From the IMG/VR virus record IMGVR_UViG_3300020074_000041, positions 1-41,746 of that record: a stretch of DNA of 41,746 nucleotides. The stretch is one strand, 5' to 3'. Below the pieces are notes generated by a model. The model ran no database searches. It saw only the letters and a list, made by a program, of their open reading frames with translations, and was not told the DNA's origin. Both the position numbers and the translations under genes were made by a program. Positions 8,917-37,605 of the stretch are shown here, one piece after another. Position 1 is the first letter of the stretch. Every line of letters begins with the position of its first letter. Source of the DNA: a virus.

Positions 8917-8987
8917 ATTATTTACTCTACTTCACCCATATATAAATTTTACTTTTTATATGAATAAATATTAGTAGGAGCAATAAT
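8917..8987 (+). promoter_or_regulatory. Late promoter with upstream anti-RBS arm (gene 8989)
   Basis: AATAAATA (8963-8970) fits the T4-type late box. The Shine-Dalgarno is TAGGAG (8975-8980). An upstream segment, ATTATTTACTCTACT (8917-8931), can pair with AGTAGGAGCAATAAT (8973-8987) through about 13 pairs with small bulges. A transcript beginning at the late promoter would lack the upstream arm. AT-rich, so weaker support than the cases at 12181 and 37548. Confidence 0.5.
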
Positions 8988-8988
8988 T

Positions 8989-9792
8989 GTGACGGTCACA
9001 AATGTAGGATATAGTACATCAGTTTTACTTTTTACTCAACGTCAGATTGTTGTTCTCTTATCAGGCAACAGTCCGAGGGCCTATATGCCAAACTATGCTA
9101 AAACACTTAATCTACATAAAGGGGTAGATAATAAAATACAGTTTCAGTTCTTAAATCAGGAGCAGAAACCAGTTGATATTACAGGCAAGACAATAACTTG
9201 TCGTATTATTAACTATAATGGTACAATTGTACTAATACAAAAATCGCTAACACTTGAACTACCAGTTACTGGTATAGCATATCTACATTTAGATGCAGCC
9301 GATCTAGAAGATATTCCTGCTCAAAAAGCATATTATAGTTTAGAGATTCCAGTAGGTGATTTCGACTATCCTGTGTTTGTAGATCCAGCAGCCGGTGCGC
9401 GCGGAGATATGAATATATTAAACAGTGTGTTACCAAGTTTTGTGCCAAGTCAAATTGTAACTATTCCAACGGGTCAGCCCTTCCCTAATCTAGATGCTAA
9501 TGTTAATAGTGAAAATCCATTGGCTAATGCTAATACATATTATAGTTCAGTTATCAATACACAAAATAATCCTGTACTCACTATTCAAACTAAACTTACT
9601 GAATATAATGGATATGTTGCTGTAGAAGGCACATTTACTCAAACATTAACTGATTGGTATCCAATTATTACAAGTGATGAATATGAAAACGTGAGCGCAA
9701 CAAAAGGATATACAATAGAAGGTTACCATCCATTTGTACGTATGGTGTTTACTAGTAATGCTGGGGTAGTCACTAATATTTTGGCAAGATAA
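8989..9792 (+). CDS. Virion structural protein, BppU-like N-terminal domain
   Basis: 267 residues from a GTG with a good TAGGAG 8 nt upstream and a late box before it. Residues about 40-120 (LHKGVDNKIQFQFLNQEQKPVDITGKTITCRI...YYSLEIP) show the pattern of the BppU-type baseplate N-terminal domain: a linear 'knob' with D(I/L)TGKTIT and a closing Y.LEI. The C-terminal half is a beta-rich, Asn-rich domain without known motifs. Likely a baseplate or tail-fibre-attachment protein. Late expression agrees with a structural role. Confidence 0.65.
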   Translation: MTVTNVGYSTSVLLFTQRQIVVLLSGNSPRAYMPNYAKTLNLHKGVDNKIQFQFLNQEQKPVDITGKTITCRIINYNGTIVLIQKSLTLELPVTGIAYLHLDAADLEDIPAQKAYYSLEIPVGDFDYPVFVDPAAGARGDMNILNSVLPSFVPSQIVTIPTGQPFPNLDANVNSENPLANANTYYSSVINTQNNPVLTIQTKLTEYNGYVAVEGTFTQTLTDWYPIITSDEYENVSATKGYTIEGYHPFVRMVFTSNAGVVTNILAR

Positions 9793-9806
9793 GTTACCAA
9801 TAGTAT

Positions 9807-9834
9807 TTGTTTCTACGCAACACTGTGTTATAAT
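9807..9834 (+). promoter_or_regulatory. Sigma70-like promoter, leaderless type
   Basis: TTGTTT (9807-9812), 16-nt spacer, TATAAT (9829-9834). The GTG start of the primase is 6 nt further on, so transcription should begin at about the start codon itself. Confidence 0.6.
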
Positions 9835-9840
9835 TACAAA

Positions 9841-10812
9841 GTGTTCGATATTCTTCAAATAATTCCAGGCAAGAAAAAAACAACGCAAAGTGGTTGGCAT
9901 AGTTTTAACGCTGTATGCTGCCAGTATCGTGGACATAAATCTGATCGTAGAGGTCGAGGGGGTATAAAGTTTGATGGCGATAACTGGAGTTATCATTGTT
10001 TCAATTGTGGCTTCAAATCTGGATTTACCTTAGGAAAAAGTTTAAGCAGAAGTACAAGACTATTGTTTTCGTATTGTGGTATTGATAAAGATCAAATTGA
10101 TAGATGGAGTTTTGAAAGTTTACAGCACAAAGATTTAATTGATTTTGTTAAGGCTAAACGAGAAGCACGAATAATTAAATTTAAAGAAATTAAATTACCT
10201 GACGCTGAATTGATTAGTAAAGATAACCAAAAACATAATAGATTTGTAGAATATTTACTAAATCGTAAAATACAATTAGAAGATTATCCTTTTTTATGTA
10301 CTCCTGATGCAGAAGGACGTAATGCAAATCGTATTATTATTCCATATACATTTGAAAATAAAATAGTAGGTTATACTAGCAGATATTTAGATGATCATAA
10401 ACCTAAATTTATAAACGAACAACAAAAAGGATTTGTATTTGGATATGACTTACAAAAGCCCGAATCTAGTGTATGTATTGTTTCAGAGGGTATATTTGAT
10501 GCTCTTAGTATAAATGGTTGTGCCTTGACTACAAATTCTATTAATGATGGGCAAGCTGCTATTCTTTCAAGATTAAACAAAAAAATAATTATTGTTCCAG
10601 ACCAAGATAAGTCAGGATTAGAAATTATAAATCGTGCGCTAGATTTAGGATTTTATGTTAGTATTCCTGAATGGAATCCAGGAATAAAGGACATTAACGA
10701 TAGTGTAGTAAAATATGGACGCTTATCAACTATACTAAGTATTTTACAATCAACTACTAATAGCAAAATTAAAATTGAAGTAAAGAGGAAGCAACTTGAT
10801 AAACGATTATAA
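9841..10812 (+). CDS. 61: DNA primase, gp61-like
   Basis: 323 residues (T4 gp61: 342). It makes RNA primers with the gp41 helicase for lagging-strand synthesis. The N-terminal zinc module uses Cys26/27, His32 and H-C-F-N-C (52-56). The TOPRIM core shows Glu216 in VSEGIFDALSI, the DxD pair Asp254/Asp256 in VPDQDKSG, and KDINDSV (283-289), like the family's KD.ND. Start: GTG at 9841, directly behind a -10 box; it gives the expected N-terminus before the zinc module. The 3' end overlaps gp41 by 17 nt, keeping the T4 61-41 functional pair together. Confidence 0.88.
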   Translation: MFDILQIIPGKKKTTQSGWHSFNAVCCQYRGHKSDRRGRGGIKFDGDNWSYHCFNCGFKSGFTLGKSLSRSTRLLFSYCGIDKDQIDRWSFESLQHKDLIDFVKAKREARIIKFKEIKLPDAELISKDNQKHNRFVEYLLNRKIQLEDYPFLCTPDAEGRNANRIIIPYTFENKIVGYTSRYLDDHKPKFINEQQKGFVFGYDLQKPESSVCIVSEGIFDALSINGCALTTNSINDGQAAILSRLNKKIIIVPDQDKSGLEIINRALDLGFYVSIPEWNPGIKDINDSVVKYGRLSTILSILQSTTNSKIKIEVKRKQLDKRL

Positions 10813-12184
10813 TATAGAAGTTCAAACATTATTTTTACGTATGATGGTAACGAATGCGGAGTTGTATACCCGTGTTATGAACATTATGAATGGTGCTAAC
10901 TTTGATCGTAGATTACGTCCTGTTGCGGAGTTCATAATAGAACATACTAAAAAATATAATGTTATGCCAGATCCAATTCAGATCAAGGCTACTACAGAAA
11001 TCAGTATAGAAACTATTCCAGAATTAGATGAAGGGCATTATGATTGGTTTCTAGAAGAATTTGAATCGTTTACTAAACGACAAGAACTTGAGAGGGCTAT
11101 TCTTAAGAGCGCAGATTATCTTGAGAAGGGCGAATATGGGCCTGTAGAAAAACTGATCAAAGATGCTGTTCAGATTTCTCTACAGAAGGACATGGGTACA
11201 GATTACTTTGCTGACCCACGTGCAAGACTCATGGCATTAAAAAGTAATAATGGACAAAATAGCACAGGCTGGCCTACACTGGATAATAAATTATATGGTG
11301 GTTTCAATCGTGGTGAACTACAAATCTTTGCAGGTGGTAGTGGCTCTGGTAAAAGTTTGATCATGCAAAATCTTGCTGTAAATTGGGTACAGAAAGGTAT
11401 GAATGGGGTATACATTACTCTAGAGTTGAGTGAAGGTTTATGTAGTATGAGATTAGATAGTATGATGACAGATACAAGTACTAGAGAAATCTTTAAGGAT
11501 CTAGATAATGTTGAAATGAAAGTAAAGATGGTATCTAAAAAGTCTGGACAACTGCGTATCAAATATATGCCAGCACAAAGCAATGTCAACGATATAAGAG
11601 CATATGTAAAAGAATTACAGATACAAACAGATATGCGTGTAGACTTCTTGTGTGTAGACTATCTAGATTTAGTCATGCCTGTAAGTGCTAAAGTCAGTCC
11701 CAATGATTTGTTTGTTAAAGACAAGTATGTTAGCGAAGAACTACGCAATCTTGCTAAGGAACTTAATGTAGTGTTTGTAACGGCTAGTCAGTTAAATCGT
11801 AGTGCAGTTGAAGAAATCGAATTTGATCATAGTCATATAGCAGGTGGTATCAGTAAGATCAATACTGCGGATAATGTGTTTGGTATATTTACAAGTCGCA
11901 GTATGCGTGAGCGTGGACTTTATCAGATACAGTTGATGAAAACACGTAGTAGTTCGGGTGTAGGTCAGAAGATTGAACTTGCGTTTGATGTTGAAACACT
12001 ACGTATTACTGATAACAATCATCTAAATGACCCAAAACCGCAGACTACAGGTAGTGAATTATTAGCACAAATTAAGAACACCTCACAGATTACTGCTAAT
12101 ACAATATCAGAAGAATCAAGCAAAGTATCAGCAAATATAGGGGCTTCTAAACTAAAGTCATTATTAAGAGATTTAGGACAATAG
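10796..12184 (+). CDS. 41: Replicative DNA helicase, gp41-like (DnaB family)
   Basis: 462 residues (T4 gp41: 475). A hexameric 5'-3' helicase on the lagging strand, partner of gp61. Motifs: N-terminal helical domain (1-130), Walker A GGSGSGKS (180-187), Glu210 in ITLELS, Walker B CVDYLDL (286-292), SQLNRSA (331-337) and the ISKINTADN region (352-360). The start is TTG at 10796, supported by a strong AGAGGA (10784-10789) 6 nt upstream and by MINDYN matching the expected N-terminus. The C-terminal 45 residues are Ser/Thr-rich and end in a basic KLKSLLRDLG tail. Confidence 0.92.
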   Translation: MINDYNIEVQTLFLRMMVTNAELYTRVMNIMNGANFDRRLRPVAEFIIEHTKKYNVMPDPIQIKATTEISIETIPELDEGHYDWFLEEFESFTKRQELERAILKSADYLEKGEYGPVEKLIKDAVQISLQKDMGTDYFADPRARLMALKSNNGQNSTGWPTLDNKLYGGFNRGELQIFAGGSGSGKSLIMQNLAVNWVQKGMNGVYITLELSEGLCSMRLDSMMTDTSTREIFKDLDNVEMKVKMVSKKSGQLRIKYMPAQSNVNDIRAYVKELQIQTDMRVDFLCVDYLDLVMPVSAKVSPNDLFVKDKYVSEELRNLAKELNVVFVTASQLNRSAVEEIEFDHSHIAGGISKINTADNVFGIFTSRSMRERGLYQIQLMKTRSSSGVGQKIELAFDVETLRITDNNHLNDPKPQTTGSELLAQIKNTSQITANTISEESSKVSANIGASKLKSLLRDLGQ

Positions 12185-12220
12185 ACACCTTTACAAGATA
12201 AATATTAGAAAGGTATCTAT
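12181..12220 (+). promoter_or_regulatory. Late promoter within RBS-masking hairpin (gene 12221)
   Basis: ATAGACACCTTT (12181-12192) and AAAGGTATCTAT (12209-12220) are complementary at 11 of 12 positions. The 16-nt loop contains GATAAATA (12197-12204). The right arm includes the AAAGG Shine-Dalgarno and abuts the ATG. Read-through RNA from gp41 would fold and hide the start; RNA begun at the late box (about 12210) lacks the left arm. The left arm also includes the stop codon of gp41 (TAG, 12182-12184). Confidence 0.7.
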
Positions 12221-12472
12221 ATGCAAAAAAGAACTAAAAGCCTCTTAGAGGAATTAGACTCCATATCTTTAAACCGTGATATTCCACATATTGTCGAAAG
12301 TCGCGGCACTAATATTATTACTAGTGCTATTAATTTAATTAAATTAATGGAGCGCCACTATAATACCGAAACAGCAGAATTATTTGAAAAGAAGTTACTA
12401 AGTTCTATTAAAAATAGAGAGCCTAGTCGATTCGCAAAATCTGTTAAAAAAAACAAACAAATAGATAAATAA
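12221..12472 (+). CDS. Small conserved late protein
   Basis: 83 residues, helical and charged, with a Lys-rich tail (KSVKKNKQIDK). The pattern SRGTNIITSAINLIKLM.......A.LFEKKLLSSI.....SRF.K recalls small conserved proteins of marine T4-type phages; function unknown to me. It is under a late promoter inside a hairpin that would block translation of read-through RNA, which implies a need for strictly late synthesis and so a virion or assembly role. Confidence 0.65.
   Translation: MQKRTKSLLEELDSISLNRDIPHIVESRGTNIITSAINLIKLMERHYNTETAELFEKKLLSSIKNREPSRFAKSVKKNKQIDK
12464..12471 (+). promoter_or_regulatory. Late promoter GATAAATA, leaderless type
   Basis: GATAAATA overlaps the end of the previous gene; ATG 12477 follows after 5 nt (ATAAT), so late RNA would start at or near the start codon. 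Confidence 0.55.
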
Positions 12473-12476
12473 TAAT

Positions 12477-12725
12477 ATGAGAATGCATGAAATTATTAAT
12501 GAAAGTAAAGAGTTGGATGAAGTAAGTCCAACCTCACTAAAAACAGCAGCTGGTTTAAAGAAAACAGCAGCAAAAACTTCAACTCAACCTTCTGCGTCTA
12601 CAAGTCCAGCAGTTACCTCTCAAACACCACGTATACAGAAAGTTGACAAACTTATTAATATTGTTAAAAATCTACCACAGCAACAAAAAGCACAAATAAG
12701 ACAGGCTTTAGGTACACAAGAATAA
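12477..12725 (+). CDS. Small late protein with possible capsid-targeting N-terminus
   Basis: 82 residues: MRMHEIINES, a low-complexity Ala/Ser/Thr/Pro middle (about 27-52) and a basic helical end (KVDKLINIVKNLPQQQKAQIRQAL). The start resembles the T4 internal-protein targeting peptide, which ends in I-x-E, the gp21 protease cleavage site; IIN-E|S fits. A head-packaged or core protein is therefore possible. Expression is from a late box 5 nt upstream. An alternative ATG at 12483 would give MHEIINES. No family recognised. Confidence 0.6.
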   Translation: MRMHEIINESKELDEVSPTSLKTAAGLKKTAAKTSTQPSASTSPAVTSQTPRIQKVDKLINIVKNLPQQQKAQIRQALGTQE

Positions 12726-12741
12726 GTTAAAAAGTCTGTCC

Positions 12742-12812
12742 AAATCCATGTATTTTAGTAAATGGACTAAATAATAGTAGACCTCTTTGAAGGTCAAACA
12801 ACATGGAGATTT
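12742..12812 (+). promoter_or_regulatory. Late promoter, leader hairpin and anti-RBS arm (gene 12818)
   Basis: ACTAAATA (12766-12773) is a late-box variant. AAATCCATGT (12742-12751), upstream of it, is complementary to ACATGGAGATTT (12801-12812, with a 2-nt bulge), which contains the GGAG Shine-Dalgarno. A small hairpin GACCT-CTTTGA-AGGTC (12780-12795) begins where late transcription should start and could shield the late mRNA 5' end. Confidence 0.55.
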
Positions 12813-12817
12813 AAAAA

Positions 12818-13186
12818 ATGGCACAATTCACTAGAGTCTCTGGCGACTTAAAACCAGTATTTCACTTAGATGCAAACTCATACACAAATTCAGGTGTAAA
12901 CGCAGTCAGTTCAGCACTTACTGTACAGCCACAAGGCCCAAAGCTTGATTTTTTCACAATCACAGCAGACGGCGCATTGACTGGTACAGAAGTAAACACA
13001 ATCATGCAAACTGTTCAACAGATTTCAACAGTTATGATTTATGAATATACTGATGCAGCTAACGACACAATCGCACTAGCATTGTATCCAACTGGAGCAT
13101 ATACAGCAGCTACTCTAAAAACAGCAGTAGACGCAGTTGCCCCAGCAGCAGTAACAGTAGCAGCCTCAGCAACTTTCACTAACTAA
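12818..13186 (+). CDS. Small virion structural protein
   Basis: 122 residues, Ala/Thr-rich and beta-prone, with no charged clusters: the look of a capsid or tail decoration protein. GGAG (12805-12808) precedes the ATG by 9 nt. It is a single-gene late unit: strong late leader in front and a strong terminator behind, which suggests high expression. I recall similar short proteins in marine phages but no defined role. Confidence 0.65.
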   Translation: MAQFTRVSGDLKPVFHLDANSYTNSGVNAVSSALTVQPQGPKLDFFTITADGALTGTEVNTIMQTVQQISTVMIYEYTDAANDTIALALYPTGAYTAATLKTAVDAVAPAAVTVAASATFTN

Positions 13187-13213
13187 TAATTAGTTAAAGT
13201 TATGCGACATAGA

Positions 13214-13243
13214 GCCCGGGAACTAAAATTCCCGGGCTTTTTT
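13214..13243 (+). terminator. Strong Rho-independent terminator
   Basis: 9-bp perfect GC-rich stem (GCCCGGGAA at 13214-13222, TTCCCGGGC at 13229-13237), loop CTAAAA, then TTTTTT. It ends the transcript of the small structural gene. Confidence 0.95.
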
Positions 13244-13260
13244 ATGTTTGTAAATAGAGG

Positions 13261-13680
13261 ATGAGCGATAAAATTGCTTGTTATACACTGTTTGATATTA
13301 CGCAGACTGGAATTCCTAATAGGGCTAAACCGCCTGAGGGTATAGATTATAAAGACTGGGTTCATAAACGTAACACACAAATAAACTTTGATACTATAAT
13401 ACAATCTATATCTTTGCGTAGTCAGCCTGAAAATATATCTGTGCCGAAATATATTGATATTTCAGTAAATTATTTTGATATGGATGTTACAAGTTGTTGG
13501 ATGTTTGATTTTGAGATACGTAGTATCGCAGTGTTTAGTGATGGCAACGATGAATTAGCATATCTTAAGGAGGATGTAAAAACTGTGCCTATGCTTATAT
13601 GTGGTACAGAAGATTTAAGATTAAAACCTTACTTAAGCATAGAAAAACCTATAAAAAATATACATTTTATTAAATATTAA
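13261..13680 (+). CDS. Conserved T4-type marine phage protein of unknown function
   Basis: 139 residues. The opening ACYTLFDITQTGIPNR and the motifs KRNTQINFDTIIQSISLRSQPE and VPMLICGTE recur, as I remember, in marine T4-type phages; function unknown. The ATG follows GAGG closely; TGTAAATA (13249-13256) could be a weak late box. The next gene starts 1 nt after its stop, so the two are co-transcribed. Confidence 0.75.
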   Translation: MSDKIACYTLFDITQTGIPNRAKPPEGIDYKDWVHKRNTQINFDTIIQSISLRSQPENISVPKYIDISVNYFDMDVTSCWMFDFEIRSIAVFSDGNDELAYLKEDVKTVPMLICGTEDLRLKPYLSIEKPIKNIHFIKY

Positions 13681-13681
13681 T

Positions 13682-14125
13682 ATGAATCATATTGATTTAT
13701 CAAAAAAGATTAAAGACTTACTAGTCCTTAAACAAGATGATGGCAGTTACCACCTTTTTGGACAATATCAAATAACGAAAGACTCCAAAGGACTATATAC
13801 TGTACAATGGATAAAAGATCCGACTATCATTATAAAGTTTGGACAACTTAAATATGCAGTGACTTGGTGTGTATTTCATAAAAATAATAAGCATAAAGAT
13901 TTAAATAAAATCGTAGAACTAGATGAAACATTGGATAGTTTAAGTGCTACTATTACTAATCATAAACGACTTGTTGATAGAAATATTGAGAATAGATATG
14001 TGCATTTAGCCAAACTATCTGAAGATAAAATTAGACGTAAAACTGCACAAAAAGCCATGAATCTTTACGTTGAATATAGTAAATATTGGCAGAACAAGAC
14101 ATTTAAAGAATACACAACTCATTAA
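13682..14125 (+). CDS. Conserved phage protein of unknown function
   Basis: 147 residues. The N-terminal half is beta-rich (DGSYHLFGQYQITKDSKGLYTVQWI) with a WCVFHKNNKH stretch; the C-terminal half is a long helix (about 80-140). No catalytic motif. It directly follows the 139-residue gene with no promoter between, so the two proteins may work together, probably in head or tail assembly given the late neighbourhood. Confidence 0.65.
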   Translation: MNHIDLSKKIKDLLVLKQDDGSYHLFGQYQITKDSKGLYTVQWIKDPTIIIKFGQLKYAVTWCVFHKNNKHKDLNKIVELDETLDSLSATITNHKRLVDRNIENRYVHLAKLSEDKIRRKTAQKAMNLYVEYSKYWQNKTFKEYTTH

Positions 14126-14142
14126 TAATTTTTTATTTGGAT

Positions 14143-14150
14143 GATAAATA
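14143..14150 (+). promoter_or_regulatory. Late promoter GATAAATA
   Basis: GATAAATA, followed by AGGA (14157-14160) and the ATG at 14170. No complementary masking arm was found here. Confidence 0.6.
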
Positions 14151-14169
14151 CACTATAGGATGTAATACC

Positions 14170-14838
14170 ATGAAACTAGAACATTTTGATAATACGGACG
14201 TTGCCGTATCAGCACTAAAAAATAACTTTAACTATGACTTAGATGTAAGCAAGTTTAATAAAATACAAACTAGAAAAATGCTAGTTCAATTTATGAATGT
14301 TATTGAAGAAACTAAAAAGAAGGCTTCATATGATTCACATAACAATTCATCCTATCTAAAGGCATTAATGATTGCTGAAGCCCTAACACAGCATTATAAA
14401 ACATTTTCTAATTCTTCAATAATTATAGAAAATCAAGCAGTAGAACAGGCAACTGTGACACTTGCGGCTCAAGAAATAGTTGATAAAGTTCAAAAAATGG
14501 TAGAACAATGTAACGATATGTTGGTTAAAGAATTACCAGCATTAGTTGACAGTATGCAAAGCGAAGTTGGAGTAAATGAAGCAAACACATACAACCAAGC
14601 AGCAAGCAGTGCTTTGACACAACTAAATCAAACATTAAGCCAAACACGCTCAACATTAAATGAAGCATTAAATGCTTTAACAGGACAACAAACAGATGGC
14701 GAATTTACGCCTGCAAGCGGCGGCGAAGAAATGGCAGTTACAGATGTAGTTGCTACTACTGAACCAGCAGCACCTGATAAAGCCCCAGTTGAAGAACCAG
14801 AAGAACCAGTTGGAGCAGTTGGCCGCGCAAAGAGATAA
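14170..14838 (+). CDS. Probable scaffold- or capsid-associated protein
   Basis: 222 residues. The ATG at 14170 has AGGA upstream and lies behind a late box; the frame is open further upstream to a TTG at 14137, which would place the late box inside the gene, so the internal ATG is preferred. Helical residues 75-165 include QEIVDKVQKMVEQCNDMLVKELPALVDSM, a pattern I associate with a conserved marine phage structural family. The C-terminal 45 residues are acidic and Pro/Ala/Glu-rich, as in scaffolds. The next gene follows after 3 nt. Confidence 0.6.
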   Translation: MKLEHFDNTDVAVSALKNNFNYDLDVSKFNKIQTRKMLVQFMNVIEETKKKASYDSHNNSSYLKALMIAEALTQHYKTFSNSSIIIENQAVEQATVTLAAQEIVDKVQKMVEQCNDMLVKELPALVDSMQSEVGVNEANTYNQAASSALTQLNQTLSQTRSTLNEALNALTGQQTDGEFTPASGGEEMAVTDVVATTEPAAPDKAPVEEPEEPVGAVGRAKR

Positions 14839-14841
14839 TAA

Positions 14842-15201
14842 ATGTATCTCTTTGAGTTTGAAAATCAAAATGATGAGGTTAATGCGATTTTAGTTGCAGC
14901 TGGCCGTCTTGAAGATTTGCGTAATCAACAACAACTAAAATCTAATTGGTCATTATATCAACTTACTAAATGGATTAATAATTATTTACAGCAAAGCGAT
15001 TCAAACTATACACTTACTGAAAAAGATGTTTTAAAAATGGTTTCTAGTGATAAAAACCCATTTAAGAAAAGTATATTAAATATTCAAAATGGTGAGGTAG
15101 TGTTTAGAGGAAATAAAGAGCAACCACCTCCTGAACCTCAGTCAAGCGAAAGTAGTAAAGACACAGTAAGTAAAATGGCTAAAAAAGCACTAAACAAATA
15201 A
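14842..15201 (+). CDS. Conserved small protein, paired with the previous gene
   Basis: 119 residues: MYLFEFENQ start, helical body (ILVAAGRLEDLRNQQQLKSNWSLYQLTKWIN), a KNPFKKSILNIQNGEVVFRG motif, and a Pro/Ser-rich linker before a basic tail (VSKMAKKALNK). Proteins of this layout accompany the preceding gene type in marine T4-type phages, as far as I recall. Probably structural or assembly-related; not proven. Confidence 0.6.
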   Translation: MYLFEFENQNDEVNAILVAAGRLEDLRNQQQLKSNWSLYQLTKWINNYLQQSDSNYTLTEKDVLKMVSSDKNPFKKSILNIQNGEVVFRGNKEQPPPEPQSSESSKDTVSKMAKKALNK

Positions 15202-15209
15202 TCTATTAC

Positions 15210-15237
15210 TTGACTTTAGGTTGCTTTATATTATAAT
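15210..15237 (+). promoter_or_regulatory. Sigma70-like promoter, leaderless type
   Basis: TTGACT (15210-15215), 16-nt spacer, TATAAT (15232-15237). The iscA-like ATG begins 6 nt later, so its mRNA should be leaderless. This is an early/middle signal placed inside a late gene region. Confidence 0.7.
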
Positions 15238-15243
15238 ATAGAT

Positions 15244-15564
15244 ATGATAACATTAACCAGTAATGCTAAAACTAGATTTAAAGAACAATTAAAAGATCGC
15301 GGCAAAGGATTAGGAATAAGATTGGGTATAACTAAAACAGGATGCAGTGGTTATGCCTATAAAATTGAATTTGCTGATGAATGGAAATCAGAAGATTTTT
15401 TAAGCATACATGATGATGTTTATGTTTGGGTCACAAAAGATGCATATAAGCATCTTGAAGGTATGACAGTTGATTATATTAGACAGGGATTAAATGAAAA
15501 ATTTGAATTTATTAATCCTAATGAAAGTGGACGCTGCGGCTGCGGCGAGAGTTTTACTGTTTGA
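15244..15564 (+). CDS. HesB/IscA-like A-type iron-sulfur carrier protein
   Basis: 106 residues, the normal size of IscA/SufA proteins. Ligands are in the canonical places: Cys34 (KTGCSGYAY) and the C-terminal CGCGESF (Cys98, Cys100). The family passes Fe-S clusters or iron to target enzymes. In a phage it could support Fe-S proteins during infection or supply the iron enzymes encoded nearby (two 2OG oxygenases, deformylase); this is inference. It has its own early-type promoter and its stop overlaps the TTG start of the nuclease gene, tying the two together. Confidence 0.9.
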   Translation: MITLTSNAKTRFKEQLKDRGKGLGIRLGITKTGCSGYAYKIEFADEWKSEDFLSIHDDVYVWVTKDAYKHLEGMTVDYIRQGLNEKFEFINPNESGRCGCGESFTV

Positions 15565-16253
15565 TATATATCCCAACAAAATATCCTTATGCTGAATTAA
15601 AAAAGCAAACTATAGATGGGTCAAGGAAATATGTGACCCCAGACGGATTTGCAGTACCCAGTGTCACCACAATACTAGATGCTACTAAGCCAGAGGAAAA
15701 GAAAAAAGCATTACAAGAATGGCGTAAACGTGTAGGCGAAGAAAAAGCTAAACAGATTACTACTGAGGCTGCTGGTCGTGGCACACGTATGCATAAATGG
15801 TTAGAGAATCATATAAAGACTGGAGAAGCGGGCAATCCAGGCACTAATCCTTATAGTATACAAAGCCATAATATGGCTAAAACTATAATAGAAAAAGGAC
15901 TATGCAAATGTCAGGAATATTGGGGTACAGAAGTAAGTTTATATTATCCTGAAGTCTATGCAGGAACTACTGATCTTGTAGGGGTACATCAAAATAGTGA
16001 TGCTATTATGGATCACAAACAAACTAATAAGCCGAAAAAGCGCGAATGGATTGAAGATTATTTTATACAGTTAGCAGCCTATGCAAATGCGCATAATGAA
16101 GTCTATGGCACTAAAATACGTAAGGGTGTTATCTTTATGTGTAGTGCTGATAATCAATATCAAGAGTTTATTATAGAAGGCATTGAGTTCGATCAATGGA
16201 CAGAATGTTGGTTTAAACGACTAGAACAGTATTATTCAAGTTTCGTTCATTAG
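15561..16253 (+). CDS. RecB-type PD-(D/E)XK nuclease
   Basis: 230 residues with RecB-family nuclease motifs: His78 in TRMHKWLE, Asp138 in AGTTDLVG, DxK (Asp151, Lys153) in IMDHKQT, and QxxxY (Gln170-Tyr174) in FIQLAAYA. Members are DNA exonucleases or nickases acting in recombination or host-DNA degradation. The start is the TTG at 15561, which overlaps the previous TGA and leaves the expected N-terminal PSVTTIL segment. Transcribed from the leaderless early promoter together with the IscA-like gene. All catalytic residues are present. Confidence 0.82.
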   Translation: MIYIPTKYPYAELKKQTIDGSRKYVTPDGFAVPSVTTILDATKPEEKKKALQEWRKRVGEEKAKQITTEAAGRGTRMHKWLENHIKTGEAGNPGTNPYSIQSHNMAKTIIEKGLCKCQEYWGTEVSLYYPEVYAGTTDLVGVHQNSDAIMDHKQTNKPKKREWIEDYFIQLAAYANAHNEVYGTKIRKGVIFMCSADNQYQEFIIEGIEFDQWTECWFKRLEQYYSSFVH

Positions 16254-16262
16254 TCCCAATAG

Positions 16263-21893
<5,631 letters not shown>

Positions 21894-22203: not shown

Positions 22204-22293
22204 GATAAATAATACTGTTCAATACGTTGTTGTATTGACTTATGCGGTTCCCGCCGCGTATCGGCTAGAACCCGAAATTATAGGAGAAAAACA
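22204..22293 (+). promoter_or_regulatory. Late promoter with long structured leader
   Basis: GATAAATA (22204-22211) precedes the ATG at 22294 by 82 nt, the longest late leader in the window. The leader can form CAATAC-GTTGTT-GTATTG (22220-22237) and GCGG...CCGC (22244-22257) stems and ends with TAGGAG (22281-22286) 7 nt before the ATG. Stable 5' stems of this kind often protect mRNAs of abundant proteins. Confidence 0.6.
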
Positions 22294-23301
22294 ATGGGTC
22301 GTCCACTAAAAATCGCAAAAGCCCAGGCTGTGGTTACATTAACAGCAACAGCAGCGGCAACAGATATCGTAACTACTTCAGCAAACTTTACTACTCTAGG
22401 CATTATTGCAGGCATGCCATTCATTCCAGCAAGCAGCGTAGGTGGTTTAGTAGCAGGTACTACATATTTTATTCTAGAGGTAATTAACGCAGGTGCTAAC
22501 AGTACATTTACTGTGTCTGCAACTACACTTTCTGCAAATCCAACTTCTGAGAAAGTTGATCTTTCAACTACAGCAGCACAATCTGTAGCCCTAACAGTTG
22601 GCGTTGTTGATGCATATTTCAACAATCCAATCAGCGGCGAAGGGTATCCAGCAACTAACACAGCAACATTTGGTGTAGTTGGGGGTAATACTGCAATATT
22701 TGGTAATCAAGTTCTATGTCGCGTTGCAGTTGGCCAGTCAGGTACAGGGACTTTAACAGCAGCTACAAATAGCACTACTGTAACAGGCAGTAGCACTGTA
22801 TTTGATACTCAACTATCAGCAGGTTCAGTATTAGCCAATAGTGATGGAGATTTGATTGGCTATGTAGATAGTATTACTGCTGCTGACGAGCTTGAATTAA
22901 CCGCTAATGCGGCGGTCGCTGTATCAGGCGGAAGTTTTGCATATGCTGACAATGAAGCGGGATTCATCGTGCGTCAAAAAGGCAAACAGAAGTATTTGGT
23001 AAAAGGATCAACATCTGGATTAGTAGGTGCGTGCTATACAGCGAACCTAGCAAACACAGCGTTGTTACCAAACACTATGTCAATCATTGCAACATATGCT
23101 AACGCAGACACTACTCTAGTACAAAGCCTAAGTGATCATACTCTTGAAATATTTACAGCAACTTCTGGCGAGACAGCATTGCCAAATGATGCAGCAAATA
23201 TTAACAATAGTTCACCAGCATTCGGTACATTCAATACTGCTGCTGTGGCTAACGCTGATAATGGTATGCCTTATCCATTAGTAAGTATTAATAAGGCTTG
23301 A
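22294..23301 (+). CDS. Major-type virion structural protein
   Basis: 335 residues, Ala/Thr/Gly-rich. MGRPLKIAKAQ at the N-terminus and the later GVVGGNTAIFGNQVLCRV, EAGFIVRQKGKQKYLVKG and LLPNTMSIIATY resemble, from memory, a conserved structural protein of marine T4-type phages. The middle shows a repeated beta pattern (TGTLTAATNSTTVTGSSTVF...). Strong Shine-Dalgarno and structured leader suggest high expression. Exact position in the particle unknown. Confidence 0.75.
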   Translation: MGRPLKIAKAQAVVTLTATAAATDIVTTSANFTTLGIIAGMPFIPASSVGGLVAGTTYFILEVINAGANSTFTVSATTLSANPTSEKVDLSTTAAQSVALTVGVVDAYFNNPISGEGYPATNTATFGVVGGNTAIFGNQVLCRVAVGQSGTGTLTAATNSTTVTGSSTVFDTQLSAGSVLANSDGDLIGYVDSITAADELELTANAAVAVSGGSFAYADNEAGFIVRQKGKQKYLVKGSTSGLVGACYTANLANTALLPNTMSIIATYANADTTLVQSLSDHTLEIFTATSGETALPNDAANINNSSPAFGTFNTAAVANADNGMPYPLVSINKA

Positions 23302-27225: not shown

Positions 27226-27254
27226 TTGACTCTATTTAAATAAGGCTTTATAAT
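27226..27254 (+). promoter_or_regulatory. Sigma70-like promoter
   Basis: TTGACT (27226-27231), 17-nt spacer, TATAAT (27249-27254). This one has a normal leader: GGAG (27277-27280) 6 nt before ATG 27287. It is the strongest host-type promoter seen and drives the 27287 gene group. Confidence 0.8.
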
Positions 27255-27286: not shown

Positions 27287-28417
27287 ATGGTTAAGTCAAA
27301 ATCAGAAATTAAAGAGTTGCACCCACGCGACACTGACGCAAAGTACATTGGGCCCGAACCCACATTCGACTATGCAGCGGTTAGCACTACGTGGGAACTC
27401 GCCAAAGCATTTAATTGGTATAATCACTTTTATGATAATAAGGACGCTAAGGAATTTCTTGCCCAATATCTAGATGTTGTGGGCAAGCAACAAGTTGCGA
27501 AAACGCTACGCCGCGTCAATGATCGTCATGTCAAGCCCACTTATGGTTGGCTTGCACGATGCATTGTCAGGGGCAGCGTAGTAGATAATGATACTCTGTC
27601 TAAGTTGCAATCTGAGATTGATCGTCTTGTGTCACTCACTCAGCCCGATGACACTACAGACGTTCCTGTTGTGGGTAATCGCCCCAATGTGCAGGAGATC
27701 ATGCGTGAGCGTACTCTGAATCTTGGCGGCGAACTTGAAGGCTTGTGGGACGAGTATATAAAAAATGGTGCTGGTAAAGATGGTATCAAGGCAATTGAAG
27801 TGTTGTCACAAAGCAACATATTACCGCAGCACGTTCCTATTCTTATTGAAGCCTGGCAAACTAAACTTGATGAGTACAACGAAGTTGCATCGGGTAAAGA
27901 TGAACAGTTAAACGAGGCGTATGAGCGTTTCGGTAAGATTCAGTTACGTAACATCATAGGCAGTATTGAGACTGTAATTGCCGATCTTAACGCATATGTT
28001 GGTATGAAGAAAGCAGGCAAGAAGCCCCGTGCTAAAAAGACAGTGCCTGTTGAGAAAATTGTCAGACGTTTGAAGTATCTCAAATCTCTCAAACTTGAAA
28101 AATTAGAACTTACAAGTATTAGCCCAACTAAACTGCATGGCTGTAGTGAGGCATGGGTATACGATACTAAGAAGCGTAAACTGCATCATTATGTTGCTGA
28201 TGAGTATACCAAAAGTCTTAGTGTCAAGAGTAATACTCTGATTGGTTTCTGTACTAAGGAATCGCAGATCAAAACTCTACGCAAGCCTGAAGAGCAAATT
28301 AAAGTTATTATGGGTAGCAAGCCTGCTGCGCGTAAATTCTTTGATAGCATTAAGGCAGTAGCAGCAAAGCCTAATGGTCGCTTTAATGCTAACATGATTA
28401 TATTGAGGGCATTCTAA
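27287..28417 (+). CDS. Conserved phage protein of unknown function, strongly expressed type
   Basis: 376 residues, soluble, Lys-rich. Helical N-terminal region (30-120); central acidic part; C-terminal segment (about 285-376) with EAWVYDTKKRKLHHYVAD....LSVKSNTLIGFCTKESQIKTLRKPEEQIK, a pattern I recall from marine T4-type phages without a known role. By eye its codons (CGT, CGC, CTT, GGC) differ from the AT-rich codons of neighbours, as expected for a highly expressed early gene or recent arrival. Promoter and RBS are close to consensus. The next gene overlaps its TAA by one base. Confidence 0.75.
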   Translation: MVKSKSEIKELHPRDTDAKYIGPEPTFDYAAVSTTWELAKAFNWYNHFYDNKDAKEFLAQYLDVVGKQQVAKTLRRVNDRHVKPTYGWLARCIVRGSVVDNDTLSKLQSEIDRLVSLTQPDDTTDVPVVGNRPNVQEIMRERTLNLGGELEGLWDEYIKNGAGKDGIKAIEVLSQSNILPQHVPILIEAWQTKLDEYNEVASGKDEQLNEAYERFGKIQLRNIIGSIETVIADLNAYVGMKKAGKKPRAKKTVPVEKIVRRLKYLKSLKLEKLELTSISPTKLHGCSEAWVYDTKKRKLHHYVADEYTKSLSVKSNTLIGFCTKESQIKTLRKPEEQIKVIMGSKPAARKFFDSIKAVAAKPNGRFNANMIILRAF

Positions 28418-28617
28418 TGGATAATAAATATGAATTTGATCCTATCAAATCAAGAATGGGAACACTAATGCAAATTATAGATACAGCTATACTATCTACC
28501 AATGATCGTAACGATCACTTGATGCTAGCGTGTGCTATGCTGCAACGCACAAGAGAAATTTTTGACTATACATTAGGCGAGAGTGGACGTAAAACGATGT
28601 TTAAGGATTTAGTATGA
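28417..28617 (+). CDS. Small hypothetical protein
   Basis: 66 residues, helical (RNDHLMLACAMLQRTREIFDYTLG). TAATG overlap with the previous gene and ATGA overlap with the MazG-like gene place it in a three-gene translational series. No family recognised. Confidence 0.6.
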   Translation: MDNKYEFDPIKSRMGTLMQIIDTAILSTNDRNDHLMLACAMLQRTREIFDYTLGESGRKTMFKDLV

Positions 28618-29066
28618 GTAACCAAATTGATTTAAAAAAATATCAAGAGTTTGTAAAGGCTGTTACTAGCAAAGAAAGTAATGATCTTACAGAGTTTATG
28701 AATCGTTTGGACCAGTTAGATGCGAATTATGAATCATATGGTCCAGATGGCGAGTATATGCATGGGCCAATGGCTAATGTACCTTTATTACTTACAGGCG
28801 CTATAGGATTGAATAGTGAAGCCGGCGAGTTAATCGAGATCGTAAAAAAGATACTATTTCAAGGTAAACCACTAAGCCAAGAAAACGTCTTTCATATGAA
28901 ACGCGAATTGGGAGATATTATGTGGTACTGGATTAGTACTTGTCGCGCACTTGAGTTAGATCCAAATGATGTAATTGCGGAGAATGTACGTAAACTTGAA
29001 GCACGATACCCTGGCGGCAAGTTTGATGTATATCAAAGTGAACATAGGAAGATTGAAGATATATAA
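28614..29066 (+). CDS. MazG-like nucleotide pyrophosphohydrolase
   Basis: 150 residues of the all-alpha NTP-PPase type. Metal ligands: ExxE in NSEAGELIE (Glu69, Glu72, Glu75) and ExxD in KRELGDIMWYW (Glu98, Asp101); the tail LEARYPGGKF is typical of phage members. The family hydrolyses (d)NTPs to monophosphates. In marine phages MazG was proposed to act on (p)ppGpp, but later work favours dNTPs, so the substrate is left open. Starts with an ATGA overlap. Confidence 0.85.
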   Translation: MSNQIDLKKYQEFVKAVTSKESNDLTEFMNRLDQLDANYESYGPDGEYMHGPMANVPLLLTGAIGLNSEAGELIEIVKKILFQGKPLSQENVFHMKRELGDIMWYWISTCRALELDPNDVIAENVRKLEARYPGGKFDVYQSEHRKIEDI

Positions 29067-29069: not shown

Positions 29070-29825
29070 GTGCAAACAAAATTTACATTTGCAAGTTTAG
29101 GCTGTTCCCATAGTAGTTATTATGCTGGTACACCCTGGCCTATTATGCTTTCACAAAAATTGAATTGTGAACTAAAAATGGCATATAGTGCAGGTGCTGG
29201 GAACGAAATGAATGTAACAAAATTAAATCAACTACTAGTAAACAATAAATTAGATTTAGTAATAGTTCAGTTAACAAGCGCCGGCAGATTAACTTTGGGA
29301 CTAAATTCTGAAAGTTTTAATTTTTATGAACCTATATCATCAGACAAAGACCTTACAGGCACTCATAATGTTAATAACGTAACTTATTATACTTTCAATC
29401 ATACTAGTAATTTAGAAAACCTTAAAAGACATCTTAATAAATCATATCATAGTGATGTTGACGATTTGATTATTAATCACATAATTACAAGCGAATATAA
29501 TTTATATCATAAAATTGTACATACCATTTGCGCCATGGAAAATTTGGCTAGAATGTATGGTATTCCAATTGTTTTCTTTAGTTGGTGTGATGATATAGAA
29601 AAAATTATGAAAGAAAACAATTATGCTACTGTGTATAATAACTTGAATTTTATACCAGGAACTGCTGAAGGTTTTTTCCATGAGAAAAAGATTGAAAGAG
29701 TAAAGACAGGACCCGCTGCTGGACATTATGATACCACAGCACATACAAGTCTTGCATTTGAGTATATTTTACCATATCTCATATCACACAATTTTATACA
29801 ATATCAAGCATCAGATATAGTTTAA
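29070..29825 (+). CDS. SGNH/GDSL-like hydrolase
   Basis: 251 residues from a GTG 3 nt after the MazG stop. Block I ASLGCSHSSYY (candidate nucleophile Ser13 or Ser15), GAGNE (Gly44, Asn45; block III-like) and GHYDTTAHTS (Asp221, His225) fit the SGNH order, with the catalytic Asp/His pair near the C-terminus. These enzymes act as esterases or deacylases, often on polysaccharide acetyl groups. No signal peptide. It may modify or remove surface glycans; being next to virion genes, it could be carried in the particle. Function inferred from motifs only. Confidence 0.6.
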   Translation: MQTKFTFASLGCSHSSYYAGTPWPIMLSQKLNCELKMAYSAGAGNEMNVTKLNQLLVNNKLDLVIVQLTSAGRLTLGLNSESFNFYEPISSDKDLTGTHNVNNVTYYTFNHTSNLENLKRHLNKSYHSDVDDLIINHIITSEYNLYHKIVHTICAMENLARMYGIPIVFFSWCDDIEKIMKENNYATVYNNLNFIPGTAEGFFHEKKIERVKTGPAAGHYDTTAHTSLAFEYILPYLISHNFIQYQASDIV

Positions 29826-29834
29826 CTTATACAT

Positions 29835-29869
29835 AAACTTCCGATAAATAGTTTATTATCGGGAAGTTT
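29835..29869 (+). promoter_or_regulatory. Late promoter inside RBS-masking hairpin (gp13-like gene)
   Basis: AAACTTCCGATAA (29835-29847) pairs with TTATCGGGAAGTTT (29856-29869) over 13 bp with a single bulge. GATAAATA (29843-29850) overlaps the left arm. The right arm contains the GGGAAG Shine-Dalgarno, 4 nt before ATG 29871. Late RNA starting near 29856 has no left arm. Confidence 0.7.
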
Positions 29870-29870
29870 T

Positions 29871-30656
29871 ATGGCTAACGATCCACTAGCAACACCTACA
29901 AATGCTACTTTAGAAGAAGCAAAACAAGGTTTATTCAATAATCTACGCTTGCGTTTAGGTGGTGATATAATTGATCTAGAATTAGATCCGCAACACTATG
30001 AGGCTGCATATAACTACACTATTAAATTATATCGTCAGGCAGCACAAAATGCTAATATAGAGTCTTATACTTTACTTACAATTATTAAAAATATTGATAC
30101 CTATACTCTTCCTGCAGAATTTATAAATGTACGTGCAATATTTCGTAGAACAGTAGGTCTTGAAACAGGACCAAGTAGCACAAGTTTTGATCCATTTTCA
30201 AGTGCTATATTAAACACTTATCTATTAAACTATAACTACACAGGTGGTATGGCTACATACGACTTTTATGCAGGCTATGTTGAATTAGCAGCACGTATGT
30301 TCGGTGGCTATGTTACATACACATTTAATCCAGTAACAAAAGTGTTGAAAATGGTACGTGACTTTAAAGGTACAGGTGAGCGTGTACTTATTTGGGCAGA
30401 TGTTCAGCGACCAGAATTAGAATTATTACTAGATCCCGGCGCAGGCGTTTGGATAGGTAATATGATTTTGGCAGTGCTTAAAGGTATAATTGGCGAAGCC
30501 CGTGAAAAATATGGTAGTATTGCCGGACCCGGTGGTGGCACAACTTTGAATGGTACTGCAATGAAAAATGAAAGTAAAGAAGAGATGAATCGTTTAATGG
30601 ATGAGTTGCGTAAGTATGTAGATTATAGTCAGCCTCTAACTTGGATTCAAGGTTAA
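29871..30656 (+). CDS. 13: Neck protein, gp13-like
   Basis: 261 residues (T4 gp13: 309). The opening FNNLRLRLGGDIIDLELDPQHYEAAYNYTIKLYRQ matches the gp13 N-terminal pattern (a gene-6-connector-like helix bundle), followed by beta segments (YTLPAEFINVRAIFRR) and a C-terminal helix region with REKYGSIAGPGGGTTLNGTAMKNESKEEM, like gp13 of marine T4-type phages. gp13 sits below the portal and joins head to tail with gp14. Late promoter and masking hairpin in front. Confidence 0.65.
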   Translation: MANDPLATPTNATLEEAKQGLFNNLRLRLGGDIIDLELDPQHYEAAYNYTIKLYRQAAQNANIESYTLLTIIKNIDTYTLPAEFINVRAIFRRTVGLETGPSSTSFDPFSSAILNTYLLNYNYTGGMATYDFYAGYVELAARMFGGYVTYTFNPVTKVLKMVRDFKGTGERVLIWADVQRPELELLLDPGAGVWIGNMILAVLKGIIGEAREKYGSIAGPGGGTTLNGTAMKNESKEEMNRLMDELRKYVDYSQPLTWIQG

Positions 30657-30694
30657 AGATTACAGCACTTAGTAGTTTTTAGTTGCATGATTTT

Positions 30695-32039: not shown

Positions 32040-32069
32040 TATAATAGTATTATGGAAATTAGTATATGA
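32040..32069 (+). promoter_or_regulatory. -10 box with five-codon leader ORF coupled to gene 1
   Basis: TATAAT (32040-32045) is followed after 6 nt by ATG 32052, which opens a five-codon frame (MEISI) ending with TGA at 32067-32069. That stop overlaps the ATG of the kinase gene (32066) as ATGA. The -35 region is poor. A leaderless mini-ORF feeding ribosomes onto the kinase start is suggested. Confidence 0.45.
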
Positions 32070-33034: not shown

Positions 33035-33050
33035 AAACTTATTTAACAAA

Positions 33051-33066
33051 AAACCTTCGAAGGTTT
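33051..33066. repeat. 16-bp perfect palindrome
   Basis: AAACCTTCGAAGGTTT. On the minus strand it is followed by TTT and lies just upstream of the HNH start, so it could stop antisense transcription coming from the sheath side; on the plus strand there is no T-run. It could also be a protein-binding site. Confidence 0.5.
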
Positions 33067-33080
33067 GCTATTGGGCAGTT

Positions 33081-33151
33081 TTTCCTATTAATTAATAAAT
33101 ATTATTAAGAAACCAGGGTATGTAACCCTCAAAATATTACAACATAGGAAA
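33081..33151 (+). promoter_or_regulatory. Late promoter with upstream anti-RBS arm (tail sheath)
   Basis: AATAAATA (33094-33101) is the late box. TTTCCTAT (33081-33088), upstream of it, is perfectly complementary to ATAGGAAA (33144-33151), which includes the TAGGA Shine-Dalgarno, 7 nt before ATG 33159. A small hairpin AGGGT-ATGTA-ACCCT (33115-33129) lies in the late leader between them. Confidence 0.6.
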
Positions 33152-33158
33152 CAGAAAA

Positions 33159-36827: not shown

Positions 36828-36838
36828 TTGAAATAACA

Positions 36839-36860
36839 GTGCGCCATGCAAGTGGCGCAC
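36839..36860 (+). other. Stable hairpin between sheath and tube genes
   Basis: GTGCGCCA (36839-36846), loop TGCAAG, TGGCGCAC (36853-36860): 8-bp perfect stem, no T-run. It begins 12 nt after the sheath stop and ends 4 nt before the tube gene's late box. It may act as an RNA 3'-end stabiliser, processing site or weak terminator. Confidence 0.7.
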
Positions 36861-36864
36861 ACTG

Positions 36865-36872
36865 ACTAAATA
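36865..36872 (+). promoter_or_regulatory. Late promoter ACTAAATA (tail tube)
   Basis: ACTAAATA; GGAG (36883-36886) gives the RBS 7 nt before ATG 36894. It allows the tube gene to be expressed separately from the sheath. Confidence 0.6.
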
Positions 36873-36893
36873 TAGTATATACGGAGAATTAAA

Positions 36894-37532
36894 ATGGCAA
36901 CAGCCTCACAATCATTGTTTAACATGACAGTAGCATCTGATAATGCCGGAGGCAATCAGGGCCTGTTGATGCCTAAACTACAATTTCGCTTTAGAGTAAA
37001 CTTCATTAACTTTGGTGTTGACACGTCCAGCGGTCTACAATTAACAAAGCAAGTAATGAACGTATCACGACCACAAGTTCAGTTTCCTGAAATCACTATC
37101 CCAATTTATAACTCAACTTTATATCTTGCAGGTAGATACGCATGGCAGCCAATAAATGTTTCATTGCGTGATGATGCATCAGGTAGTGTATCAAAAGCAG
37201 TAGGACAACAATTACAGAAACAATTAGATTTCGTAGAAATGTCAAGTGCTGCAACTGGTCAAGATTATAAGTTCCAAACTAATATTGAAGTATTAGATGG
37301 TGGAAATGGAGCAAACAAACCAAACGTTCTTGAAACTTGGGAAATTTATGGTTGCTTTATTCAAACAGCAAACTATAACAACTTAGACTATAACACTAAT
37401 GAACCTGCACAAATTGCATTAACATTACGTTATGATAATGCTATACAATCACCACTAACTAGTGGAGTTGGTCAGGCTATCGGAAGAAGTTTAGCAGGAG
37501 CATCAGTTACTGGTATTGGCGGCGGCAGTTAA
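36894..37532 (+). CDS. 19: Tail tube protein, gp19-like
   Basis: 212 residues (T4 gp19: 163). FRFRVNFINFG, QVMNVSRPQVQFPEITIPIYNSTLYLAGRYAWQPINVSLRDDASGSV and VLETWEIYGCFIQTANYNNLDY..NEPAQIALTLRYDNAIQ are the classic tube-protein elements. It polymerises inside the sheath. The Gly-rich tail (SLAGASVTGIGGGS) extends past the T4 length. Order sheath-tube is conserved with T4. Confidence 0.92.
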   Translation: MATASQSLFNMTVASDNAGGNQGLLMPKLQFRFRVNFINFGVDTSSGLQLTKQVMNVSRPQVQFPEITIPIYNSTLYLAGRYAWQPINVSLRDDASGSVSKAVGQQLQKQLDFVEMSSAATGQDYKFQTNIEVLDGGNGANKPNVLETWEIYGCFIQTANYNNLDYNTNEPAQIALTLRYDNAIQSPLTSGVGQAIGRSLAGASVTGIGGGS

Positions 37533-37547
37533 TTTTAATTTTTAGTA

Positions 37548-37605
37548 TATAAGGATAACCCCATTTTTTCTATTGATAAATAGTTTAAATGGGGTTTACC
37601 TTATA
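37548..37605 (+). promoter_or_regulatory. Late promoter in the loop of a long RBS-masking hairpin
   Basis: TATAAGGATAACCCCATTT (37548-37566) and AAATGGGGTTTACCTTATA (37587-37605) pair at 17 of 19 positions. The 20-nt loop holds GATAAATA (37575-37582). The right arm contains the GGGG RBS and ends on the A of the start codon. Late RNA should begin near 37588 and lack the left arm. This is the clearest example in the window. Confidence 0.8.

Follow-up and report, generated by a model that had tools for sequence, protein, structure and literature searches.

How does a phage keep virion genes silent when they lie downstream of genes that are transcribed early? This question is raised by the virus record IMGVR_UViG_3300020074_000041 of IMG/VR, which comes from a T4-like myovirus and was analysed over its whole length of 41,746 bases (the window; features lie on its + strand unless stated). 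The first-pass annotation had described in it, at seven genes, late promoter boxes with an upstream or overlapping segment complementary to the ribosome binding site (RBS) or start codon downstream, and had proposed that this was a common design for virion genes. Our results suggest a narrower answer: we consider it likely that a late promoter embedded in an RBS-masking hairpin insulates a late gene placed last in an early operon, and not all late genes. This would hold for the neck gene, which starts at 29871, and probably for the genes starting at 37605 and 12221.

The neck gene hairpin and its operon

The neck gene (29871..30656) encodes a T4 gp13-like head-tail adaptor, Ad2 (phrog_211; its cultured homologs are labelled neck or Ad2, and a comparison of the protein with PDB sequences gave nothing useful). 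Its late promoter box, GATAAATA, is at 29843..29850. The left arm of the hairpin (29832..29847) takes in the first bases of the box, and the right arm (29856..29873) carries the RBS and the start codon. Read-through RNA from the upstream operon would have both arms and is predicted to fold, burying the RBS together with, in the case of the neck gene, its start codon. T4 late boxes are described at -13 to -6 relative to the RNA start (PMC1524935), and this offset, which we applied throughout, places the predicted start of the late RNA at 29856, so that this RNA would begin at about the right arm, without the left arm and with the RBS open. Since read-through RNA would fold over the RBS, the hairpin would keep the virion protein silent until late transcription. 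We infer the early timing of the operon, the late RNA start and the translational repression; the sequence, its predicted folds, the covariation and the promoter-like motifs are what we observed.

Late boxes were scanned as [N][A/C]TAAATA, which confirmed the boxes reported at the seven genes. Note that ATAAATA occurs 16 times on the + strand and once on the - strand, 17 in total vs a shuffled mean of 30, and that only its strand and position are unusual. Masking was scored with four tests. The 50-nt opening test compares the energy needed to open the RBS in the read-through RNA with that after 200 dinucleotide shuffles of the 50 nucleotides (nt) left of the box, and covers 14 box-gene pairs of the window; the 40-nt opening test follows the same idea with a left flank of 40 nt and was used for the window, the T4 controls and cultured phages; the 60-shuffle test scores RBS opening with 60 shuffles and was also pooled by family (11 families). 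The arm-duplex test is simpler, covers 15 rows of the window and has a stricter null, made of the left arms of other loci. Separately, the arm-swap test compares the pairing of a gene's own left and right arms with that of arms exchanged within its family (18 families, two arm lengths each, 36 tests).

In the 40-nt opening test, the T4 positive controls e, soc and I-TevII gave p 0.005 each (soc was scored at TTTAAATA, 20 nt before the ATG, because the script picks the last box), and T4 genes 18, 20 and 9 gave p 0.42-0.88. T4 gene 49 was missed (p 0.62) because its arm falls in the unshuffled part. On T4, the arm-duplex test gave 0.01 for I-TevII, 0.06 for gene 49, and 0.035 and 0.443 at the two boxes of e; it missed segB (p 0.9) and ranked soc at 0.114, and its power is therefore limited.

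At the neck gene, opening the RBS would cost 14.1 vs 8.2 kcal/mol in shuffled sequences (p 0.015, 50-nt opening test), with a stem that extends to the ATG. The other tests gave p 0.045 (arm-duplex), 0.02 (40-nt opening) and 0.082 (60-shuffle), and the stricter null p 0.149. These folds suggest that the Shine-Dalgarno (SD) sequence and start codon of the neck gene would be paired in read-through RNA beyond chance.

The relatives carry most of the evidence. The late motif lay within 48 nt of a candidate ATG in 243 of 256 neck loci, the other 13 being too short upstream, and the 243 were reduced to 82 non-redundant loci. The neck family gave z -9.9 in the arm-swap test (0/5000 permutations); in the 82 loci, own arms paired at -11.58 vs -7.14 kcal/mol for swapped arms (z -16.4, 0/10,000 permutations). 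A duplex of -8 kcal/mol or stronger was present in 63/82, and the right arm reached the ATG in 23 of those 63. The mean opening energy of the family was 11.8 in the read-through RNA, 5.9 after shuffling and 1.3 in the late RNA (60-shuffle test). Pairs were also counted at fixed register in all 17 members with a box-ATG distance of 19 and all 15 with a distance of 18, at the best of 16 registers scanned (distances 17, 20, 21 and 22 fall outside this count). In both sets, 8 of 13 pairs were altered on both sides. The covariation score was 0.326 vs 0.178±0.022 shuffled (0/500) at distance 19, with slid registers at 0.05-0.11, and 0.290 vs 0.144±0.027 (0/500) at distance 18, with slid registers at 0.07-0.17. 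On this sequence evidence the neck arms co-evolve, and compensatory changes are seen. A T4 e/soc-like switch at the neck gene, with co-evolving arms, the box on the left side of the hairpin and the RBS in the right arm, thus appears well supported.

The operon upstream would begin at a sigma70-like, presumably early, promoter (TTGACT-17-TATAAT, 27226..27254, 11/12 matches). It contains a first gene of phrog_11903 (27287..28417; a family of unknown function), whose homologs precede the neck gene in relatives, a MazG-like pyrophosphatase (28614..29066) and, between mazG and neck in the window, an open reading frame of 251 aa without family match (29070..29825). With a criterion of at least 10/12 matches within 110 nt, a sigma70-like promoter was found in 53/61 non-redundant regions upstream of the 27287 homologs vs 16/1000 random stretches, and in 1/79 before mazG; in the 12 regions before 27287 homologs that were inspected, it lay 57-61 nt from the gene start. 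Thus, the neck gene stands at the end of an apparently early operon, and a simple scan found no other + strand terminator between the operon promoter and the neck hairpin. The MazG gene ends at most 45 nt from the neck box in 44/82 loci (the window is not among them), lies 46-1000 nt away in 33/82, the window being such a case, where other genes or noncoding DNA separate the two, and was not found in 5/82.

In the raw counts, the presence of a strong hairpin varies with the neighbouring gene. The hairpin was strong in 56/63 neck loci where a co-directional gene lies 4-40 nt upstream and in 5/14 with a far or divergent neighbour (raw p 1.8e-5), in 0/3 where a stop codon overlaps the box, and in 2/2 with too little sequence to judge the neighbour. 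We infer that masking serves late genes that come directly after an early operon.

Many of the 14 loci with a far or divergent neighbour share one noncoding element of about 400 nt upstream of the neck gene. In the 13 sequences that carry it (L064, L202, L329, L027, L218, L039, L317, L050, L068, L316, L322, L309 and L011), some of them closely related, RNAalifold gave -63.1 vs -7.1±3.5 for 30 column-shuffled alignments, with compensatory changes at 25/65 pairs and 11/844 cells unpaired. It had no Rfam match at the gathering score (6 loci), only sub-threshold ones at E≤5 (2 stretches) and no tRNA (6 loci), and blastn with the L322 copy gave no GenBank phage match. This element is possibly a new structured RNA.

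The other sites and the late genes at large

A strong hairpin of the window precedes the tube-like gene 37605 (phrog_13438/4542). Its left arm spans 37546..37566, the box GATAAATA lies in the loop at 37575..37582, and the right arm, with the RBS and start codon, spans 37587..37607. The first-pass annotation had counted 17/19 pairs here; the fold has more, 19 pairs in a stem interrupted by a 2x2 internal loop. The opening energy was 23.8 vs 10.4 kcal/mol shuffled (p 0.005, 50-nt opening test), and the other tests gave p 0.005 (arm-duplex), 0.005 (40-nt opening) and 0.016 (60-shuffle). Against arms of other loci p was 0.005, the sole row of the window below 0.05 under the stricter null. The left arm is identical in the six near-identical contigs holding it; these show no variation at the elements, and so no covariation can come from them.

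The late-promoter cassette of this gene is duplicated: 37530-37583 and 39020-39076, before two neighbouring genes, are about 87% identical over 54-56 nt. The second copy (39020..39093; 87.5% over 56 nt) matches the right arm poorly, and gene 39094, which had not been listed before, gave p 0.25 in the 50-nt opening test. It was rejected as an eighth switch, as its left arm pairs better with the right arm of 37605 (-13.0) than with its own, weak one (-5.3).

Gene 12221 comes after a DnaB-like helicase gene, and the left arm of its hairpin (12181..12196) overlaps the helicase stop codon. The box, GATAAATA, is at 12197..12204 and the right arm, with the RBS, at 12205..12220. The arm, for which 11/12 pairs had been claimed, indeed exceeds shuffles: the opening energy was 10.0 vs 4.2 kcal/mol (p 0.005, 50-nt opening test), with p 0.045 (arm-duplex), 0.005 (40-nt opening) and 0.016 (60-shuffle). 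Under the stricter null p was 0.085, and the family, FAM0, is weak. Rfam covariance models run over the whole window at E≤5 had no match at 12181-12220, 29832-29873 or 37546-37607. From these sequences, a switch at 37605 and 12221 is plausible; both stand out in the window and are not generally conserved. With lower confidence, they may be lineage-specific uses of the same device.

The remaining sites were less clear. The sheath gene, 33159, gave p 0.01 (50-nt opening), 0.617 (arm-duplex), 0.119 (40-nt opening) and 0.213 (60-shuffle), so that its result depends on the settings; gene 12818 was weak, with p 0.065 (50-nt opening), 0.478 (arm-duplex) and 0.213 (60-shuffle). At 16263, p was 0.83 with a TTG start at 16272 (50-nt opening), and 0.761 (arm-duplex) and 0.033 (60-shuffle) with the family start, ATG 16299. 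At 8989, masking was no better than in shuffles (p 0.83, 50-nt opening). Thus, when folds were set against dinucleotide shuffles, the masking claimed at seven genes stood at 37605 and 12221 (4/4 tests) and at the neck gene (3/4), failed at 8989, and was mixed, weak or setting-dependent at 33159, 12818 and 16263. Over the 14 box-gene pairs of the 50-nt opening test, four had p≤0.015 (binomial 4e-5), and since Fisher's method over all 14 gave p=0.001, the set as a whole exceeds chance.

The late box and leader of the sheath gene occupy 33094..33158, and its family gives no support to the masking claimed at 33081. Instead, at 33115-33141, this leader contains a candidate H-type pseudoknot (AGGG/CCCT with TGTAA/TTACA), matched in 99/107 distinct sheath leaders by a pattern built for that purpose. 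Stem 1 occurs as AGGT/ACCT, AGGG/CCCT and AGGC/GCCT, and stem 2 as GTTA/TAAC in 16 leaders and GTAA/ATAC in 12. A tract of at least 5 T precedes the late box in 21/22 members of the sheath family (FAM8) and 20/26 of the 12818 family (FAM6), mostly without a terminator stem. As a terminator this tract was rejected, with 2/22 and 1/26 terminators vs 2 and 2 in shuffled sequences.

Is masking a general design of late genes? The window and its relatives gave 695 box-gene pairs (4/699 were lost to edges or N), and 454 non-redundant ones after removal of near-duplicates. Of these, 28 had p≤0.05 and 6 p≤0.01, which is about chance level. In the arm-swap test, the 12221 family (159/5000, short arm) and the 12818 family (236/5000, long arm) were nominal among the 36 tests, and the remaining families were null, sheath included; four families had only 3-5 members. 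For RBS opening in the 11 families, z*sqrt(n) was 15.3 for neck, 3.8 for the 12818 family, 2.4 for the 12221 family and 0.0 for sheath; in the tube family, FAM3, the RBS was more open than in shuffles (-3.6), and two others lean likewise (-1.9, -1.6). A general design of all late genes is therefore rejected for the window's clade by the pooled, arm-swap and family opening tests, and the common design proposed for virion genes finds no support there. Covariation in the relatives likewise favoured the neck gene and not the sheath of this clade.

The late-box genes show other features. Their box-to-ATG distance is sharply bimodal, with 94/454 at 4-5 nt, 2 at 1-3 and 22 at 6-8. At 4-5 nt a T4-type RNA start would fall at the ATG, and an SD 4-mer (AGGA, GGAG or GAGG) lies within 20 nt in 3/94 of these genes vs 93/149 of those at 18-23 nt. 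This class, which includes 12477, 21907, 39898 and 27189 (- strand) in the window and FAM2, 7, 12 and 14 in relatives, would appear to be a conserved set of late mRNAs that lack a leader. A strong G+C hairpin lies at 36839-36860, after the stop codon of the sheath gene and before the late box of the tube gene; by eye it is present in most of the 28 FAM3 members, with differing sequences, and 7/28 score as terminators in a simple scan vs 0 shuffled. In FAM13 of the relatives (MTQQNIDFGAFPDD), 14/16 have a stem and T-run like those of intrinsic terminators in the 90 nt that precede the late box, vs 1 in shuffled sequences, which may be an alternative insulation of a late gene.

Cultured jumbo phages and rival explanations

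Among the matches listed, the best cultured ones of the window's tail sheath are jumbo phages (Atu_ph07, PA5oct-type, Munch-type and others), at 38-47% identity over about half of the protein; megablast against GenBank phages gave no match to window positions 8000-20000. In these distant phages, masking was seen at both neck and sheath, so that what the annotation had supposed for these two genes fits the wider group. The neck hairpin had p≤0.05 in 11/15 cultured jumbo phages (40-nt opening test): Munch, K64-1, RaK2, GAP32, CBB, XbC2, Kaldavass, PBECO4, 121Q, XaC1 and PA5oct. The 15 are not independent, as K64-1/RaK2, PBECO4/121Q and GAP32/CBB/XbC2 share genera and Kaldavass resembles GAP32/CBB/XbC2. 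Starts were moved downstream of the deposited ones for 121Q, RaK2 and Kaldavass and 15 nt upstream for PBECO4, and Phosso (L365), RAS14 (L378) and Mel-JY01 (L370) were left out of the shuffle test. The sheath hairpin had p≤0.05 in 8/9 (PA5oct, XaC1, PBECO4, Munch, CBB, GAP32, Vibrio 2.275.O and Atu_ph07) and p 0.08 in SCTP-2. Next to the sheath, on its upstream side, PA5oct, XaC1, PBECO4 and CBB have a gene annotated as a dNMP kinase, and Munch one annotated as a kinase-GTPase. The deposited neck start lies inside the hairpin in RaK2 (L373), Kaldavass (L379) and 121Q (L380), with the likely ATG 12-18 nt downstream.

Surveys of all box genes gave 10/59 at p≤0.05 and 5 at p≤0.01 in Munch, above chance, and 4/62 and 2 in 121Q, near chance; the neck gene is not among the 14 rows listed for 121Q, where the first ATG is inside the hairpin. 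Together with the neck and sheath results, the surveys indicate that the device is recurrent but selective. Masking hairpins with the late box inside were also seen at Munch 97955 (an i-spannin, with an annotated terminator upstream), Munch 239064 and 121Q 35078 (DnaJ-like), the latter two directly after IF3-ClpS genes. We see an even chance that the device recurs in jumbo T4-like phages where a virion or lysis gene ends an early operon (neck, sheath, DnaJ-like after IF3-ClpS, spannin), with arms rebuilt anew in each lineage and lost once the early neighbour moves away.

Several results weigh against the proposed insulation of late genes by masking hairpins. At the neck gene, 19/82 loci have no strong hairpin, and the test was not significant in cultured Atu_ph07 (0.51), SCTP-2 (0.36), Vibrio 2.275.O (0.11) and BF (0.10). 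For T4 gene 13, the 80 nt inspected contain no late box. RNAalifold predicted no pairs on a MAFFT alignment of 29 neck leaders, which is why pairs were counted at fixed register; the loop length varies and the arms are out of register in the MAFFT alignment. One of eight SD-like 4-mers is present in the right arm of 63/63 strong neck hairpins, which is uninformative because the same 4-mers occur in 125/146 other late genes of like spacing. A late box also lies upstream of the operon's first gene in 10/61 regions and upstream of mazG in 3/79, so that some such operons may be transcribed late too. When phylogeny was taken into account, the neighbour contrast was reduced to 6 independent pairs with support, of which about 3 went in the expected direction and 0 in the opposite one, which is not significant. 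Moreover, gene 37605 comes after a late gene, so that the rule of an early junction gives no account of it; in L006, the box of its relative lies 5 nt from the ATG, the duplex is weak (-3.2) and there is no comparable hairpin. The 12221 hairpin, finally, reached p≤0.05 in only 6/39 family members (60-shuffle test).

Another explanation is intrinsic termination: the hairpin, overlapping the late promoter, would end transcription of the upstream operon, and late RNAs would escape because the left arm is missing from them. T-runs follow the right arm in cultured XaC1, GAP32, BF and PBECO4, a terminator scan lists 29839-29864 as terminator-like, and L342, L009 and L256 have at least 5 T before the ATG. 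However, among the strong neck hairpins of the window's clade, the interval from SD to ATG holds at least 5 T within 8 nt in only 3/63 (4 T in the window itself), and the stem runs into the ATG in 23/63, which makes this reading unlikely. Since T-runs are present in some cultured neck leaders, termination may be a second function there.

The pairing could also reflect chance or composition, with AT-rich T-tracts facing purine-rich RBSs, as at 33081, 12742 and 8917. The late-box genes pooled are at chance level, 33159 and 12818 lose significance under other settings, 8989 gave p 0.83, and the T-tract kept before the box in the 33159 and 12818 families (21/22, 20/26) could pair weakly with any purine-rich RBS. 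Chance leaves unexplained, however, both the compensatory changes at the neck gene and the 19 stem pairs at 37605, and we find it hard to credit there. Least probable is that the inverted repeat around the late promoter serves as a DNA operator or an RNase III processing site and not as an RBS mask: the box lies partly inside the repeat in many relatives, but the arms change with pairing kept, which is evidence against a fixed DNA operator.

Known late-gene hairpins

A known RNA is also present in the window. The Rfam scan (E≤5) found freshwater-2 (RF02980) at 22220-22296, with 66 bits and E 5e-8, together with a snoRNA on the - strand (16249-16374) that stayed below threshold. The freshwater-2 RNA lies between a late box (22204) and gene 22294, which has a weak tail-fibre match, and is also present in L039. 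It shares with the hairpins the window and the position in a leader after a late box; it differs in its gene and is at none of the masking sites. Its position suggests that the freshwater-2 motif can be a phage late leader.

The genome paper of phage CBB counts 35 places with the late motif ATAAATA and 74 predicted terminators and describes a gp55-like sigma; its main text does not contain the word 'hairpin'. In a limited search of the literature we recognised no description of the device at neck or sheath genes.

The hairpins described here would share with those of T4 e, soc, 49 and I-TevI the sequestration of the SD and/or AUG in an RNA helix. Late transcripts of T4 e are reported to start inside the structure, without its 5' part (PMC3014915), and the late promoter of I-TevI is described as positioned to keep late RNA from forming the hairpin, much as at I-TevII, I-TevIII, segB and Aeh1 mobE (PMC2988022). 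The homing-endonuclease hairpins guard mobile endonucleases, whereas the one described here would guard a virion gene that comes last in an apparently early operon. In comparison with the T4 genes, those found here are others (neck; sheath in cultured jumbo phages; 37605 and 12221) and belong to another phage group. Thus, the mechanism would be of the known T4 e/soc/I-TevI type, and the neck gene, and probably the sheath gene, would be new sites for it. This points to a simple rule by which phages whose operons mix early and late genes would keep virion genes silent early, and it may help to correct the annotation of start codons in this phage group. A classic control of T4, described for lysis, capsid-decoration and mobile-endonuclease genes, would thereby extend to the neck, and probably the sheath, of a large phage group, with covariation as evidence for this type of control.

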